The notes under the pieces are model-generated. The model searched no databases, was not told the DNA's origin, and saw nothing but the letters and a program-made list of their open reading frames with translations. Positions 1,144 to 59,545 of a DNA stretch of 64,000 nt are shown piece by piece. Numbering within the stretch: the first letter of the stretch is position 1; every line of letters starts with the position of its first letter. This DNA is from Salvelinus alpinus (lineage: Eukaryota; Chordata; Actinopteri; Salmoniformes; Salmonidae): positions 16,345,565 to 16,409,564 of the forward strand of contig NC_092122.1 in the NCBI RefSeq assembly GCF_045679555.1, read 5' to 3'. The position numbers and the translations under genes were made by a program.

Positions 1144-31256
<30,113 letters not shown>

Positions 31257-44160: not shown

Positions 44161-47100
44161 CAGTGTTGCCAACTCCTCAGTAAGGAAAGTAGCTATTGGC
44201 TGTCCTACAAGTCGCTAGAAGTCGCTAAATGACGCCATCGCCTAATTTGCATAATTGGCCATGTGCATGTAATTGTGATGGACGCCGTAGGAGAGAGGAA
44301 TAACGTCGTGGGAGAGACAAAAAGTGAGTAAAAAACTCCCTAAATATGTTTAGAACTACAAATTAACTTTCTTCTGTTGATTCTTGTTTTTTTATGTCAC
44401 AATTCCAACCCTCCTCCTTTATCCGGACTTGGGACCGACAAAAGTGACCCAAAAGAGACACTTACTTAGTTTTTTATTTTATTTTTTATTTTTTGTTTTT
44501 TAATTTTATTTTTCTTAATTTGGTTTGGTTTTTAACCTTAGGGTCCACTTAGGAGCCTACATCAAGTCACAGTAAAACATGAACATTTTTAACCATAACA
44601 TTTCATTTTTTTGTATACAATCTACATTATCAACATTATCAACCTAAATGGACCAAAAAGAGACAATAGAAAAAACTGTCAAAGACAATGTGAGAAAATT
44701 ATGGTAACTAGTCTGGCCCTAATTCAGGTTAATAGTTTTTTTTACAGACCCCCCTCCACACACACACAGGCTGTGCTGGCTCACAGAAAGAGTGGGTCAT
44801 CATCATTTTGGTCAGGGCTCTCTATGGCAGGTTCAGCAACTGAGGGAGCTGACTTAAATGAGTAAGCAGCTGATGTGCCAAAAAGCTGCTGGTGCTCATT
44901 GCAAGCCTCACCAGACAGCTTCAGTCCATATCGAATGTACAGGATCGGTTAAGGGTCTGCAAGGACATCCGATTTCTACGTTTGCTTTTTACCACACTCA
45001 TCTGGCTGAATACTCTCTCGACTTCAGCATTCGAGTGTGGCAAGGACAACACAGACACAGCAGCCATGGCAAGTTCTTGAAACGGGTTGATATCAGCTGC
45101 ATCCCTGAACTTCCCAATCTCACTCCAGAAGCCCAGTGTTTTTTGTCTCATTCCATTTACTAAGATGGATGGCACGCCATTGCTGAACAATCTTGTCTAG
45201 CTCTGCATTTGAGTCGCCAAGGAGCTTGGCTATTTTAATTTTTTTCTCCAGGGCTCTTATTGTGCTTTAGAGTTTCCTCCACATTGAAAACTGACATGTA
45301 CTGCAATGCTTCGATGTTGTCCAGCAGTCTCACCCTCAACTCATTAGTGAGGGAGATGATGAAGGCTACACACCGCTTTCTGACATTGTTTTCATCCTCA
45401 GGCGCAAGGTGGAGCTCAGCTGCTTTTGACTCAAAAAGGTAACCAAGGTACGGTTTGGGACTGATGTATCCATCTATTGGCCCTTTGAGTACATCAACAT
45501 TTGCCAATGGTTACAGCACCCTGCTGCTCACAGACTTGATCAGGCTAACCAAGCTGTCAAGTAGCTTAAGAGGATCTACTTGCTCTCCCTCAAAAGCCTT
45601 GATGGCCAACTGTACCTCACCCAGCACTGACTTCAAAAAAGTCAGATACAATATGTTTTGAGGATCACTGTACATGGAGTATAAAACCTCAGCCATGTAG
45701 CAGTGTTCACTGGACTTGGTGACTGTGAAATGCAGCCTAAGCTCCTCCCACTGGTCCAAAATGTGTGAAACCGCAGGTTCAATGGAGAGCCAACGTGTGG
45801 CACACACCTTGGTTATCTGTAAAGGTTTCTCCCCACAGTTGATGGTCTCATATATGGCCTTGTAGGCCTCCCTGCGCTTTGGAGACACTGAAAACCAGTT
45901 ATAAGTCTCTCGTACCAAGTACTCCACACTACGTGGGATGGTGTCATTGGAAGCATGACTTACAGCAAGCTGCAGAGAGTGGCACACACAGCGAATAGGA
46001 ACCAGATATTTGAGGCCATACTCCTCCTTCAGCACTTTATGGACCCCATTGTTGTTAATCCCCGTCATAACAGAAGCATTGTCAGTCCCTATCCCCAGGA
46101 GTTTCTCTTTTTTAAGACAACACTTCTCGAGGAAAGCCACAACAGCACGGGCTATAGATTTAGCATCTCCTCCCTCCAACTCAAGCCCCAGAAATGTTGA
46201 TACAATTGTCTGCTTGGTATCACTAAAGTACCTTATCACAACCCCCAGGTACTTAGAAACTTACATCCGTGAACTCATCGAGGAGGAGGCTGAAACGCTG
46301 GTCACCCACATCTGTGACCAACTTTTTTTATAAAGTATGGTGCTAGAACACCATTAATCAATTCTGTGCACTTTGTCCTGTGCATTTTGAAGTGGGTAGC
46401 AGCTGTGGAGTCTGAGAAAGCAGCTCTACATGCTTCTCCAATGTGATCACATGCCAGCATGGAACAGTGTTCAGCGAATGGTGGCCTCAGCCTTTTTTGC
46501 AGTCAATTTTTTTAACCATAAATGGCAGCTTGTAAGGCTTTGCCTTTTGAATATGTTTTTGAGTTACTAAGTTTGGCGTAGAAATCATCCTTACAATACA
46601 ACCAGTATGCCCATGTATCATCTCCAATAAACAGCTTCAACCAGCCTTTGAATTCAGGGTTTGATTCCCACTCCTTTCTGTATTTTTGAGTGTACAGTCT
46701 AGACTGAGACATGATGAGCTAGCCAGCTAGATGTTTAGCTTATGTCACAGATAGGCGCACACACACAGTGGACAAGGTGAGTAAGTGACTGAGGCTGTGT
46801 GAGTCAAATGCAGTAATTTATTTTTGTGCAGTGATTTATTTTAGACAAAGAACATTTTACATTTGCATCCCGCCCTGAATGTAAGCCAGGGCAGGATCAG
46901 CCAGCGGCAGCTTCCCGCATGCACGATTCATTTGCAGTCTGGACACGGAGGGGTGAACATCTCCTGCTCTGACTGCAGCTGGGAGGGACTGCTGCGCGAG
47001 GACTGGGCCGCCTGTGAGTGCTTTGGGACGGGGGTGGGGCCCACGGCAGCACTTGCTGCTCGTTGAGAAGAGTAAGAACAATACGTGCTTTCACGTCAGA

Positions 47101-47200
47101 GTCTCCAAAAACACCAGAAAGTTGCTAGATTTGTCACTAGTCGCTACAGGGGTCTGAATACTCGCTAAATATAGCAACAAAGTCGCTAAGTTGGCAACTG
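44161..47200 (-). mobile_element. hAT-superfamily DNA transposon, inactive copy
   Basis: The ends CAGTGTTGCCAACT and the reverse complement CAGTTGCCAACT form short terminal inverted repeats, with GTCGCTAGAAGTCGCTAAAT and CTCGCTAAATATAGC inside them. The 8-bp target duplication is not resolved. The transposase reads on the minus strand. A start with MSQSRLYTQKYRKEWESNPE (46712 on) is followed by a catalytic core (45511-46239; LLGIGTDNASVMTG, CVCHSLQLAVSHA, CATRWLSIEPAV) and the hAT C-terminal dimerisation region (44921-45190; NAEVERVFSQMSVVKSKRRN). Several frame breaks separate these pieces. Bases 45055-45147 are copied exactly inside rhno1. Confidence 0.85.
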
Positions 47201-47499: not shown

Positions 47500-47575
47500 T
47501 ATCCCGAGCAGCAAAACAATTGAGTGGACTCGATAATATCCCGAGCAGCAAAACAATTGAATGGACTCGATAATA
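47500..47575. repeat. 37-bp tandem duplication downstream of rhno1
   Basis: Two adjacent copies of ATCCCGAGCAGCAAAACAAT plus TGAGTGGACTCGATAAT, differing by one base (GAGTGG versus GAATGG). It lies in the 3' flank of rhno1. The rest of 47201-47736 holds nothing else I can name. Confidence 0.85.
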
Positions 47576-47736: not shown

Positions 47737-48893
47737 TCAGTCCCTCAGCAACCTCATCAGCCCTTTCCTCCTCCATGTAACCTTGACTCCATAGTCCCTC
47801 TCTGGGGTGTCTGTTGCTAAAATCTCTGAAGTCACGGTGTGTGGCGGGGTCATCGGCTGTGACGCAGGCAACAGGAGGCGAAGAAAGGAGGAACTACCAT
47901 CATGGTGTAATTCTGGAGTCTCTACATCAAGTGGGGAGAAGACATTGTCCGTGCCAGGGGTGTGGTGTGTTGCTGAGGCAGGAGTCCGAGCAGAGCATGA
48001 CGCTGGGCTCTTGCAATGTCTGGCAACATTGGCAGCTGCCGTTCTAAGGACCCCCACACATCTGCTAGAGGTTGATGCTGCATCTTCCGGTGTTACCTCT
48101 GACAACCGTCTCCTCTCAGCTGTCCCTTTCCTGAGAGAAGTTCTCGGTGTTGGTGTCTCCGTTTCATCTTGGTTACTTAGGTACTCTGTACTTAGAGAGC
48201 CGACCTTATGCGCTTGCAAGCCCTGCTGCTCCTCATGGGCCCCAAGAGCAGATTCTACAGCTTTCTTTCCACGTGCATGCTTTTGATGGAGAGATTGGAC
48301 TGTTGACCTTCTCTGAAAAGATAAGGCTTGGAACTTGCAAACACTACTTTTTCTGGATAAGTGAGAACTCCTGTCAAGAACGCTTGTTGCAGAGAGGAAC
48401 TTCTTCCTTCCTCTGGGTGCAGGGGGCGGAGTTGATCAAACTGTGGACTCACCTGAAATTGAGTGAGAGAGACGAGACATCTTTGAACATGTTAGTTATA
48501 CATTATTTATAGTCTATGGTTTGAACGGACAACATTCAGAAGATAGTAAATAATTACATTAAAAACATGATTGATTATCATCATACACATTATCAGTTAT
48601 CCTAAACTGTGATTACCCAAGAACTACACAGCAGCCATGGCAAGTTCTTGAAACGGGTTGATATCAGCTGCATCCCTGAACTTCCCAATCTCACTCCAGA
48701 AGCCCAGTGTTTTTTGTCAACTACAGGCTGTGCAGCTATTCTGTCGCTGCTCCTCAACCAGAAATGACTTGGGATTGAGTGCCCCTCTCACTTGAGGCAC
48801 GTTGTGGTATCTGGCGTCATCAAGTGGTGGCTCAAAAAACAGCGACGGCTTCTGTGAGTTTGACAAATATGTCTTTCTTGTTTTACGGGGCAT
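47737..48893 (-). pseudogene. rhno1: RHNO1 (9-1-1 interacting nuclear orphan), disrupted copy
   Basis: RHNO1 binds the RAD9-HUS1-RAD1 clamp and TOPBP1 and helps activate ATR at stressed forks. Coding exon 1 is 48893-48617 and begins MPRKTRKTYLSNSQKPSLFF, like human MPPRKKRR. It ends at a good donor (TTGG|GTAATC). Intron is 48616-48453. Exon 2 (48452-47737) opens with VSPQFD (human WVSPDFD) and includes SSHLSRKSSVCKFQALSF. It ends in the family hallmark DTPERDYGVKVTWRRKG near the C-terminus. Two disruptions are seen. A 93-bp insertion with a 7-bp flanking repeat in exon 1 adds 97 bases and an immediate TGA, and the frame changes in exon 2 near the five-C run 48426-48422. Without them the product would be about 298 aa (human 238). 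Salmonids are ancestrally tetraploid, so another copy may serve. Confidence 0.82.
48626..48718. mobile_element. 93-bp templated insertion of hAT transposase sequence in rhno1 exon 1
   Basis: The 93 bases are identical, by direct comparison, to 45055-45147 in the hAT transposase C-terminal region (coding for QKTLGFWSEIGKFRDAADIN and onward). They are flanked by AACTACA on both sides (48622-48628 and 48719-48725). The first three bases (ACA) are shared between flank and donor. The fragment has no transposon ends of its own. Confidence 0.93.
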
Positions 48894-50238: not shown

Positions 50239-53200
50239 ATGAGACAGAGCCCAAGAAGGCCCCTGATCCTTAGGAGGAGGAAGCTTCCTTTCCAGCTAAA
50301 TGAACCAACACTTGATGGCTCAATTGATGAGCCGGATGGACTACGACACAAGGGACCATCCACATCCAAACCCTCAGGTGGCCAGTGCTTTCCTGATGGC
50401 ATCCGCATCATGGACCATCCCACTATGCCTGGCACACAAGTGGTTGTCATCCCCAAAACTGCAGACCTTCAGAGTGTAATTGGGGCCCTCACTGCCAAGG
50501 GAAAGGAGTGTGGCTCTCAAGGACCAAACAAATTCATCCTTCTAAGTGGTGGTGGCTGTATCGAGGATGGTGCAGATTCTTTCAGTCAACCTAGCTATAT
50601 GAGAGCTCGCAGCTCTGGTAGGAGTAGCATGGCTCTTGTCACACAGCCAGAGAAGGCAACAACAATGGACTGCCTAAAGGATACTAGGACTTTGACTACA
50701 ATTAAACCATGTATGTTTATTTGCTTTCATGATTTTGGGTTAAATGACCCTCCACTTTTCAGGTGTTGTTTAACTGTTTGATGATGAACATTGCTGATGG
50801 GCACAGTTTTTATTTCACAGTGAATAGGGACCTTGATTGCAGTCCTCTAGATGACAGCCTTACTAACATCCAGTGGCTTGGGAGGATGAATACAGACGGT
50901 CTTGAACCAGATCCTGCTAAGAAAGCTGCCAACAAAGAGAATCATGACGCTTGCCAACAGATTCTCCAGGTTTGGCTCCTCTTTTAGCATCTTGCTGTGA
51001 TTGTCAACGGACGTATGTAAACAGTGATGCTCAAGGAGGGTGTCACCGGCAATGTGTTATACGTTTATCTAGAATGTTTCAAGTGTGCACTCAAGTGTGA
51101 TATTAGTTCTGCGTGCTTGCTGCATTTGTTGAGTCTTCAAAGAGTAGTATCTAAATAGGCCAAACAAAACCAACCTCTCTTTTGTTCTGTTTTGCACACA
51201 GTCACAAAGTGAGCGAATGGAAGCACACATGGTTGTCAAAGACCCCTTGTCAGAGAGACCACCCTACTCATACATGGCAATGATTCAGTTTGCCATCAAC
51301 AGTAAGAAGAGCAGGAGGATGACATTGAAAGAGATCTACACTTGGATTGAGGATCACTTTCCATATTTCAGAAAGGTGGCTAAGCCAGGCTGGAAGGTAA
51401 ACATCCGTAATAAGCCCTTGGTCACAGATAGATTTTATTGGTGTCACTGTAGTAGTTGAGGACAAGATTGTGTTATAATAGAAGTGGAAAAATACCCCTT
51501 AAGCACCCAACAAAAACTTGTATAATTGCCAATGGCATAAGCCACATCCTCTTAGTTTGATATTGTCTATGCTCCTCTGCCAGAATTCCATCCGCCACAA
51601 TCTCTCCCTGCATGACATGTTCATCCGTGAGACAACACAAGATGGCAAGATCTCCTACTGGACCATCCGCCCAGAGGCCAATCGCTGCCTTACTCTTGAC
51701 CAGGTTTACAAGGTCGGCATGTTACCCACTTTTATGTTCTAAGTCATATTTTGTTGCTGGCCAATTACAACTATGGGACTCCACAAAAGGACAAATCCCT
51801 GCATATAACGGTCTTAACTCTGATATCTACTTATCTCTATGATAACTCTGTCCCTTTTGACCAATTTTCCACCCCACAGACTGAGTCTGATCCAACTTCC
51901 GTCTCGTCTCGGACCATGCAGGTCTGTGACCAACATGTAAGATTGTTTTACCCTTCTTTTCATCTGTGGCAGTCAGTCAGGGAGGACAGGACACTCAGAG
52001 AGAGGACAGGACATGCTTTCCATCTGCTCTTGTTTAGCTCATTAAGTTGACAATTAATTTCAGGGGAGGTGCGAGGTGTAGGCAGAGATGCAGACATCAC
52101 AGGACCACCGTACATAGTCAGTAACTTCTTCTACACAGGTCTAACTCATGCCGTCTTCATATGTTGTCTTTGAGAAGAGAAAGGGACCATTTCAATTAGA
52201 ATAGTTGTGTTGGGAATGAGAAGTTAACATCTCAATTGTCTCCCGCAGCAACAAAAGAGAATTGCTCCTGAAATCAAGAAAACATCTGCCAGTGCCCCTG
52301 GTGAGTGAGGGAAAGACGTGGGGGGAAACAAGCAGCTGGACAATTACCAAACCTTTGAGAGTTGGAAATTATTGATGTGTAGCTGTTGCCTCATGACTTT
52401 TTTTTCTGCCATCCATATGTTCAGAGAGGAAGATGAAGCCCCTTCTTCCTCGTGCAGACTCCTACCTGGTCCCCATCCAGCTGCCTTTCACCCAGTCACT
52501 CTTCCTGTCCTCGTCCACACAGTTCCCCCTCTCTGCCCCCCAACAGAAATCTAGCTCCACAGGAGGGGGCAAGAGGGTCCGTATAGCTCCCAAGGTAAAG
52601 TCTCACCATCACCATACGTTTTTTTTTATTGTGAAGTGCCGGGAGGTTACTTGATTCCCTATAATTATTAAATGAATACGCTGGGACTGTGTTTGGCAGG
52701 TTACGTACAGTGATGCCTCCACAGTGATGCTGTATGCTCCTCCAGTTGAGGAGATGAAGGAGGAGCAGGTCTGTGTGCCCCTGACCTCTGTTACCCCTAG
52801 AGCCATTCTGACCAACACCAGGAAGGAAGTCAGCAGCTCCCGTCGCAAGCAGCGCCTCGTCCTGCCTTCCAACGAGGAGCCTGTGCTCCTCTTCCCCGAC
52901 AGCACCTTCTTCGACTCGGGCCTGGCCTCCGACGGCTCCGCCTTACAGGACGCCGAGCTCGATCCCCGGCCGGAGCCTGACAGCCCCTGCAGGGAGTTCT
53001 CTTTCAAGACCCCCATCAAGAGCAGCCACCCAGCCTCCTCCACCCCCAGCAAGCCACCCACTGTGCTGTTAGAGCCCTGGAGGGTGACCCCGCTGGGCAA
53101 GGAGAGAGGTGGCATGCTGGACTTCAGCCCCATCCGCACCCCCGGCCCCAGCTTCACCCCGCACCGCCATGACCACACCCCCTTCAGCTTCAGTAGCACT

Positions 53201-53506
53201 CCCTTTAAGGACCTGCCCTTGTTCAACTCCCCTCGCGAGCTGCTCACCTCTGCACGCTCCTCATCCGCGGCTGGCCCCACCGGCACCTGCTCCCCGGGGC
53301 TGGAGCGTCTGCAGGGCTGCTCTAGAGAGCTCCAGATCGGGGGTCCCTCCACAGCTAACCGCTCCCTTACGGAGGGCTTGGTCCTGGACACCATGAACGA
53401 CAGCCTGAGCAAGATCTTGGTGGATATCAGCTTCTCTGGCCTGGAGGATGATGATCTGGGTATGGGGAACATCAGCTGGTCTCAGCTCATCCCTGAACTC
53501 AAGTAG
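50239..53506 (+). CDS. foxm1: Forkhead box protein M1 (FOXM1), 8 coding exons, 671 aa
   Basis: FOXM1 is the nuclear transcription factor that drives G2/M genes with the MuvB complex. Coding exons: 50239-50710, 50821-50969, 51202-51396, 51584-51712, 51880-51921, 52249-52300, 52425-52594, 52700-53506. All phases join. The start MRQSPRRPLILRRRKLP matches human MKTSPRRPLILKRRRLP. The N-terminal block HPTMPGTQVV...ALTAKGKE is conserved. The forkhead domain spans about residues 226-315 (RPPYSYMAMIQFAI, then recognition helix NSIRHNLSLHDMF at 273-285). A small 14-residue exon (TESDPTSVSSRTMQ) follows. KMKPLLPR, KRVRIAPK, FKTPIK and SSTPSK come next, and the C-terminal transactivation region NRSLTEGLVLDTMNDSLSKI...WSQLIPELK ends the protein. 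A noncoding upstream exon is likely, because a CAG acceptor lies at 50192-50194. The gene is intact and diverges from rhno1. Confidence 0.96.
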
Positions 53507-58200: not shown

Positions 58201-59545
58201 TCACTTTTGTTGCTGAGCATTTTCCTGTTTAAAAAGGCTTCTGAAGTTTGTAATTTCCACTGACATTTCCATTTCAGACTTGATTTGCCCAAATGAAAAA
58301 TGCATCAACCCCTACAAAAATGGCCATTAATTATAATCAACAGGCTCATTTTCCTGCTGTAGCAAACTGTCTCAAATTAAGATCCTACATCTGTATATTA
58401 AACCATCAGTTTAATAGTAAACATTTGGACATCTGTTCAAGGACTCATATACTTGAATGATAATAAATGTTTTAAATTATGTTAATGGTACAAATAATAG
58501 TGGAGGCATGTATGACAATAACCTGTACAGTGAACTGTTATTACCTTAATTAAATAAGATAAGTCAAAATGACTTTATAAGTGAAAAGGTTGATTACATG
58601 TGCAAATACCAGAGGATTATGGACCTTGGCCAGATCATTCAGCTAAGTGAACACATCCAGCACAGTTTACTACCAAAGACAATACAGCGAGTACTAGATT
58701 ACACCTCTGAGGTAGCCTAAGCTTCCATTAGGGGAGTGAATGTTGTGTGCTGTCTGTGAATTAAAGGGGCAGTGCAGTCAAATGCATGATTTACCTGTGT
58801 TTTATATATATTTCCACACTATGAGGTAGAGAAAAGACTGCCTGAAATCTCAGCTAGTTTCGCCCTGCCTGGCTACATGACCAGGCAGTGTAAGTTAATA
58901 GACCAATAACAATAATATATCTCTTTTACAATAACACCTAGTTTTCAGGTTACAATCCCTCCAATTAGGCTCCTCCAATTAGGAGGCTCCTCATTCAGAC
59001 CTTTCCCATACAGTCCTAGCAAAATTTTTGCGAGACAAATTACTTTTTGTTAAGAAGCTTTTTTGTATGTTTTTAAACATTTTGATTGGAAAAAAATCAC
59101 AGTAAAGTGCTTAATTGTTACCCAGAAATGTTTTCATATTGAGATAAAAACAGCTGCATTGGACCTTAAACAATACTGAATCAGCCTGATGTCAAAAATG
59201 TTTCAAGACGGATATTGTGTTAGCAACTGCCACTCTCAAACATCACAATTATGCTCCTCTTGCTTTCATAGTTACCCACTACCTCTTTTAAAATGACAGT
59301 TGGTGCTTACCGAAGGTCGAGAGAACCCCACACAGTGCCCAAACCACCAGTGACAGGCCCACACTACCACTGTTCATCAGAACCCCTTTTGGTGCAATGA
59401 AGATGCCGCTGCCCACCACGGTACCGATGATGAAGGAGATAGCCGGAAGCAGACCTATTGTCCTCCTCAGGTGGATCACTTCATCTTCTTTCTTCTCCTT
59501 CACCTCATCCCCCTCTTCCTTCGACTGAATTCCATCTATGCCCAT
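55272..59545 (-). CDS. slc7a11: xCT-type cystine/glutamate exchanger light chain, 12 coding exons, 488 aa
   Basis: Heteromeric amino-acid transporter light chain of the SLC7 family, most similar to SLC7A11 (xCT), which exchanges extracellular cystine for glutamate and feeds glutathione synthesis at the plasma membrane. Exons (5' to 3'): 59545-59311, 57636-57510, 57393-57278, 57182-57057, 56948-56849, 56752-56708, 56610-56487, 56384-56281, 56182-56086, 55926-55777, 55653-55476, 55336-55272. All phases fit. Landmarks are TM1 GTVVGSGIF (41-49), [21 protein letters not shown], and FFSPC with Cys144 where xCT has the cysteine that bonds the 4F2hc heavy chain. Others are [47 protein letters not shown] and a tail [15 protein letters not shown]. 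Human xCT has 501 aa. The close match of loop sequences argues for SLC7A11 or a fish co-orthologue rather than SLC7A9/A10. Paralogue naming is uncertain. Confidence 0.88.
57671..57942. repeat. dispersed salmonid repeat in slc7a11-like intron 1
   Basis: The stretch from CCCACTGGGCACAGACGTCA to TTTGCTGTGGGCTGGG belongs to a common family with words such as TTCAACGTGAAATCA and TTCCACGTTGACTTAAC. It has inverted similarity between the ends (CCCACTGGGC and GCTGTGGGCTGGG). No ORF. Confidence 0.6.
58205..58395. repeat. dispersed MITE-like repeat, inverse copy of 21043-21262
   Basis: CTTCTGAAGTTTGTAATTTC to AATTAAGATCCTACATCTG matches the reverse complement of 21043-21262. It is a non-coding element in intron 1 of the slc7a11-like gene. 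Confidence 0.75.
58761..59170. repeat. dispersed element with inverted ends in slc7a11-like intron 1
   Basis: It starts TTAAAGGGGCAGTGCAGTCA and ends GCTGCATTGGACCTTAAA, a short imperfect inverted repeat typical of a salmonid MITE family. It lies just downstream of coding exon 1 of the slc7a11-like gene (intronic side). No ORF. Confidence 0.6.

Follow-up and report, generated by a model that had tools for sequence, protein, structure and literature searches.

One of the two rhno1 genes of Salvelinus alpinus carries in its first coding exon an exact 93-base copy of a segment of a hAT transposase region lying roughly 3.5 kb away, and a repair-mediated duplication from this nearby template is very probably the explanation of the insert. 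The window, by which we mean the whole stretch of 64,000 nucleotides that was analyzed, is part of contig C37 of a 2.37-Gb genome; a second rhno1 locus is found on contig C11. The features referred to below are as follows (positions in the window).

44161–47200, minus strand: decayed hAT element, absent from C11; left end CAGTGTTGCCA, right end degenerate
45055–45147, plus strand: donor segment in the hAT transposase region, identical to the insert
47737–48452, minus strand: rhno1 exon 2; frameshift after VSPQFD, premature TGA at 47739–47737, Pfam RHINO match
48453–48616, minus strand: rhno1 intron; splice signals kept, conserved in C11
48617–48893, minus strand: first coding exon of rhno1, interrupted by the insert; TGA stop at 48719–48717, 100 bases before the exon end
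48622–48628, no strand assigned: left flanking repeat AACTACA; last three bases shared with the donor match, single copy in C11
48626–48718, plus strand: insert, exact copy of 45055–45147
48719–48725, no strand assigned: right flanking repeat AACTACA

The insert and its empty site

Direct comparison of the insert with the donor segment gave 93 identical bases out of 93 in the same orientation, at an offset of 3,571 and with 3,478 bases separating the two. The pair is also the top match when the region from 43 to 50.5 kb is compared with the rest of the window (E 4e-46), and 93 exact bases rule out a match by chance. AACTACA borders the insert on both sides, and ACA forms bases 1–3 of the 93-base match as well as the last three bases of the left repeat; owing to this overlap, the net gain at the site is 97 bases. 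The exact copy and its two AACTACA borders, as described in the original prediction, were confirmed base for base. It should be noted that a 7-base word recurs at a spacing of 97 at 7 of 63,890 window positions, the AACTACA pair included. Neither end of the insert shows an untemplated poly(A) or poly(T) tract, and the 50 bases around the left junction contain neither TTTTA nor TAAAA.

Ordinary transposition was rejected as the origin of the insert, in agreement with the earlier view of an internal hAT fragment: the 93 bases lack the ends of the element, and neither terminal inverted repeats nor an 8-base duplication were found there, the flanking duplication being of 7 bases.

Three stretches of the window, searched in the genome, are 92, 98, and 94% identical to sequence on C11, and for each of them C37 and C11 hold the only two genomic matches. 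In the rhno1 gene on C11 the insert is lacking and AACTACA stands once; the two alignment blocks that meet there share exactly these 7 bases, and both flanks are otherwise collinear. Because C11 shows an empty site with a single AACTACA, hAT is taken as the donor and rhno1 as the recipient, and the simplest reading, in a comparison made within one genome, has the insert as the derived state. The original prediction had proposed this direction and a comparison of both duplicated loci, and had named a hAT recipient as the outcome that would refute it; the empty site within this genome supports the former and goes against the latter. Nor does C11 have the hAT element, both flanks of which align there; either the element was gained on C37 or C11 lost it. 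The insert is known from one genome, where it could be a polymorphism or, with lower probability, an error of assembly.

The hAT element and the choice of donor

Within 44921–45196 the donor element matches the hAT dimerisation domain (PF05699; Pfam, E 7.2e-08); its reading frame is broken, the open stretches being spread over three frames. The left end of this copy is perfect, while on the right side both the end and the target duplication are degenerate; the right end at 47200 was read by eye, and the alignment with C11 resumes at 47195. No clear terminal repeat was seen among the longest 25 of 102 pairs of inverted repeats around the donor hAT. The family as such shows terminal inverted repeats and an 8-base target duplication: a script paired both ends in 6 of the 26 hAT copies searched, and the 8-base duplication is perfect in three of these six (L024, L033, and L038) and lacking in perfect form at L014, L026, and L039, as also at the window copy.

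A genome search with the 93 bases gave 57 candidates, the best 40 of which were scored, and the count of hAT copies is accordingly a lower bound: at least 40 genomic matches (best 40 of 57), insert and local donor included. A single one of the 38 other scored copies (best 40 of 57), located on C12, matches exactly at 93/93. Sequence was read for 26 of these 38, the remaining 12 having listed identities of 95–99%; those read mostly share 87–95% identity with the window copy across long stretches, indicating an old family. Two rare marks narrow the choice of donor. Position 45115 is C in the insert and the local donor and A in 25 of the 26 copies read, the C recurring only in C12; a T6 run before GTC is common to the insert, the local donor, and three of the 26, C12 among them. 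Both marks together are found only in C12 among the 26 other copies read. A donor drawn at random from the 39 scored copies (38 others plus the local one) would match exactly in 2 of 39 draws. Over the 93 bases, the C12 copy fits the insert equally well; by its rare marks and its distance, the local copy is the likely donor, preferred over C12 since proximal donors prevail among the human events reported by Pace et al. 2009 (824 of 1,136 within 5 kb, mean 162 bp; PMC2671141, as far as the consulted portion of that paper gives them).

Decay of the rhno1 copy and age of the insert

The rhno1 gene lies on the minus strand, with a Pfam RHINO match (PF15319, E 2.1e-18) in 47737–48435. Read directly, the window copy starts with ATG at 48893–48891, exon 1 ends with base 48617 at a donor GT (48616–48615), and exon 2 follows from 48452 after an acceptor AG (48454–48453). 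The nine bases predicted between the insert with its repeats and the splice donor are correct, and this original donor is intact despite the insert, which itself contains a donor-like GGA/GTGAGA, a putative splice donor. The in-frame TGA at 48719–48717 spans the junction of target and insert directly after codon 58, and the 97 added bases with this stop truncate the gene as had been anticipated. On C11, exon 1 has 61 codons ending CSSW, and exon 2 begins VSPQFD and is open to its stop. The RAD1-binding motif of RHINO is WVxPxF (PMC10937111, in the text available from that source); in C11 the W at the end of exon 1 and the VSPQF at the start of exon 2 fit it and are separated by the intron, and the insert-derived TGA precedes this motif.

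Two more lesions were found in the window copy: the reading frame of exon 2 shifts after VSPQFD and before the part that matches Pfam RHINO, and there is the premature stop at 47739–47737, beyond which C11 continues for 13 more residues. Pfam and PDB searches with the first frame of exon 2 returned no match. One small lesion may be a sequencing error. With three lesions, and with a duplicate that is open throughout, the window rhno1 is a decaying copy. By the usual rule, a transcript bearing the insert is predicted to be subject to nonsense-mediated decay, the stop lying 100 bases before the exon junction. The effect of the insert on the animal is probably small, given two more disabling changes and the open C11 duplicate. 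Of the predicted hit on a checkpoint gene, the truncation therefore stands, whereas a lone loss does not, in view of the frameshift, the premature stop, and the open C11 twin. Between the two copies, 18 of 217 synonymous and 23 of 701 nonsynonymous sites differ (ratio 0.40), which suggests that much of the divergence took place under constraint, this being a pairwise ratio that pools the two lineages. A literature search for rhno1 with salmon found no work on this, as judged by titles and the openings of abstracts.

Head to head with rhno1, a forkhead gene is encoded on the plus strand at 50239–53506, with Pfam Forkhead matches in two adjacent open stretches (E 4.6e-18 and 1.8e-09); its long exon (52676–53506) is open and 98% identical to the C11 copy. 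We take this neighbor to be a presumed foxm1, from the features of the human protein and the gene order of RHNO1 and FOXM1.

The absence of differences over 93 bases allows a divergence of up to 3.2% at 95%, and the two rhno1 copies differ at ~8% of synonymous sites; on this sequence comparison, the insert probably arose after the two loci had separated. The perfect identity had been read as a sign of a recent event: this holds as a loose bound (≤3.2%), and a very recent origin is not borne out by 0/93.

Comparing the window with 70 kb of C11, we counted 29 length differences that reach 25 bases or more and lie within the collinear blocks or between them. Gaps of 25 bases or longer were counted, as were spaces between blocks where the opposite side has no more than 5 bases; blocks for which the unaligned DNA is long on either side alike were set aside. 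Donors were sought in both sequences for the 24 differences of up to 1,000 bases, the five larger ones being left out. An exact nontandem donor within 5 kb was found for one of the 24, the rhno1 insert (for microsatellites, among their first five matches only). Nine other differences have some match: four are or hold microsatellites, three are weak or short, and the remaining two are a tandem copy at 47525–47561 and a 47-base difference at 21141–21187. The comparison of duplicated chromosomes within one genome is a cheap way to count repair scars.

Repeats of other kinds were seen elsewhere in the window. The 47-base difference from C11 at 21141–21187 has a 94% inverted match at 58274–58320, 37 kb off, and the two are possibly a short dispersed repeat. 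A tandem array with a 30-base period occupies 17001–19068, its shifted copies being ~97–99% identical; the arrays at 21656–22520 and 28293–29628, ~6 kb apart, share a similar unit of ~47 bases and are ~82–96% alike in the listed pieces.

Origin of the insert

We infer that a staggered double-strand break would have occurred in exon 1 of one of the two rhno1 copies, and that the break end reading ...AACTACA would have paired through three bases (ACA) with the hAT copy ~3.5 kb away. Some 90 further bases would then have been copied from hAT and the new strand joined to the other break end; the 7-base stagger, kept or filled in on both sides, would leave the AACTACA repeat. The pathway may have been synthesis-dependent strand annealing or a polymerase-theta-like end joining. 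The latter makes templated insertions, short copies primed by a few bases of microhomology, and 90 copied bases would be long for polymerase theta. Templated synthesis at a staggered break with 3-base microhomology, as originally put forward, finds support in the ACA overlap, the 7-base repeat, and the empty site; a 3-base microhomology at a given junction has a chance expectation of ~1/64, which weakens the repair reading.

The insert closely resembles the proximal repair-mediated duplications (RDs) of Pace et al. 2009 (PMC2671141), as these are described in the available part of the paper: the copy exceeds 50 bases (93), its donor is more than 50 bases and less than 5 kb away (3,478 bases), an empty site exists in a related sequence, here the C11 duplicate of the same genome, and the junctions show traces without a tail, namely the 3-base microhomology and the 7-base duplication. 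The short target duplication is shared with a part of the RDs; it is a minority outcome among the proximal junctions examined there (6 of 39, with microhomology in five of these six) and is present here. The table of that source gives target duplications of 4–21 bases and microhomologies of 2–9, its text reports poly(A) or poly(T) in 0 of 39 proximal junctions, and 80 events are listed for zebrafish. Unlike those cases, the recipient here is a coding exon, the published pipeline, as described, having been confined to the interior of interrupted transposons; the donor is one of a family of repeats and was identified by two marks and its distance. The pipeline further keeps only copies with a single other genomic place, a filter outside the mechanism, and here the local and the C12 copies both match at 93/93 (best 40 of 57). 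The insert also recalls the class 2 templated sequence insertion polymorphisms of PMC5110952, with a copied patch at a presumed double-strand break and microhomology; as characterized in the portion consulted, that class differs in having no target duplication and distant donors and in being often thought RNA-derived. We regard the insert as a well-documented case of an already known type of repair scar.

The same product would also be expected from replication template switching (FoSTeS/MMBIR), in which a stalled strand jumps at ACA, copies ~90 bases, and returns 7 bases upstream: the 3-base microhomology, the direct orientation, the short distance, and the 7 re-copied bases all agree with it, and the MMBIR-linked templated insertions of PMC8421209, in the part of that source available, are likewise short copies primed by a few bases of microhomology. 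Break repair and template switching cannot be separated from a single product. Template switching nevertheless appears improbable to us: the return junction has no microhomology, no further switches are seen, and a stagger is the simpler account of the 7-base repeat.

Breakage induced by hAT, suggested in the original prediction, has lost ground: it is very improbable that a hAT transposase made a cut, at the rhno1 site or in the donor, and that the fragment was captured in an aborted reaction. The donor is a hAT, one of the at least 40 matches to the 93 bases (best 40 of 57, insert and donor included), and three of the six sister copies with paired ends themselves lack a perfect 8-base duplication; against this, the flanking repeat has 7 bases where three sister copies have a perfect 8, the fragment carries no terminal repeat, the open stretches of the local copy lie in three frames, and the family is old. 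An artefact of assembly or gap filling, judged from the assembly alone, is about equally improbable, given that a misjoin is not expected to yield a 7-base target duplication with flanks collinear with C11. The least probable reading is that a LINE inserted a fragment of hAT RNA, as in class 1 templated sequence insertions. Class 1 typically has flanking repeats of 5 bases or more (PMC5110952, as far as the accessible text describes it), which speaks for this reading, but the poly(A) addition and TTTT/A target of that class were not found at the insert, with its untailed ends and its left junction free of TTTTA/TAAAA, and the donor lies within 5 kb, a range for which the available part of PMC2671141 gives no tailed event among 39.

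Break repair from the nearby hAT copy is thus retained as the most likely origin, and the function of the recipient gene adds a further aspect. RHINO is described as critical for the recruitment of polymerase theta in mitotic repair, and theta joining of G1 breaks as proceeding without need for RHINO in the B-cell lines studied (PMC12657980, in the portion of the study consulted). That a scar possibly left by theta-type joining lies within rhno1 is, as far as the evidence goes, a coincidence. It is unlikely, though conceivable, that the error-prone repair event was what first disabled the window rhno1, removing one duplicate of a gene that steers mitotic polymerase-theta repair; if this were true, a repair regulator would have lost dose, following genome duplication, by way of a scar from the type of pathway under its control. 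The locus offers a clean natural scar of a double-strand break in a coding exon, with its empty site and likely donor within one genome; the scar sits in one of two rhno1 copies, and the other copy reads open.
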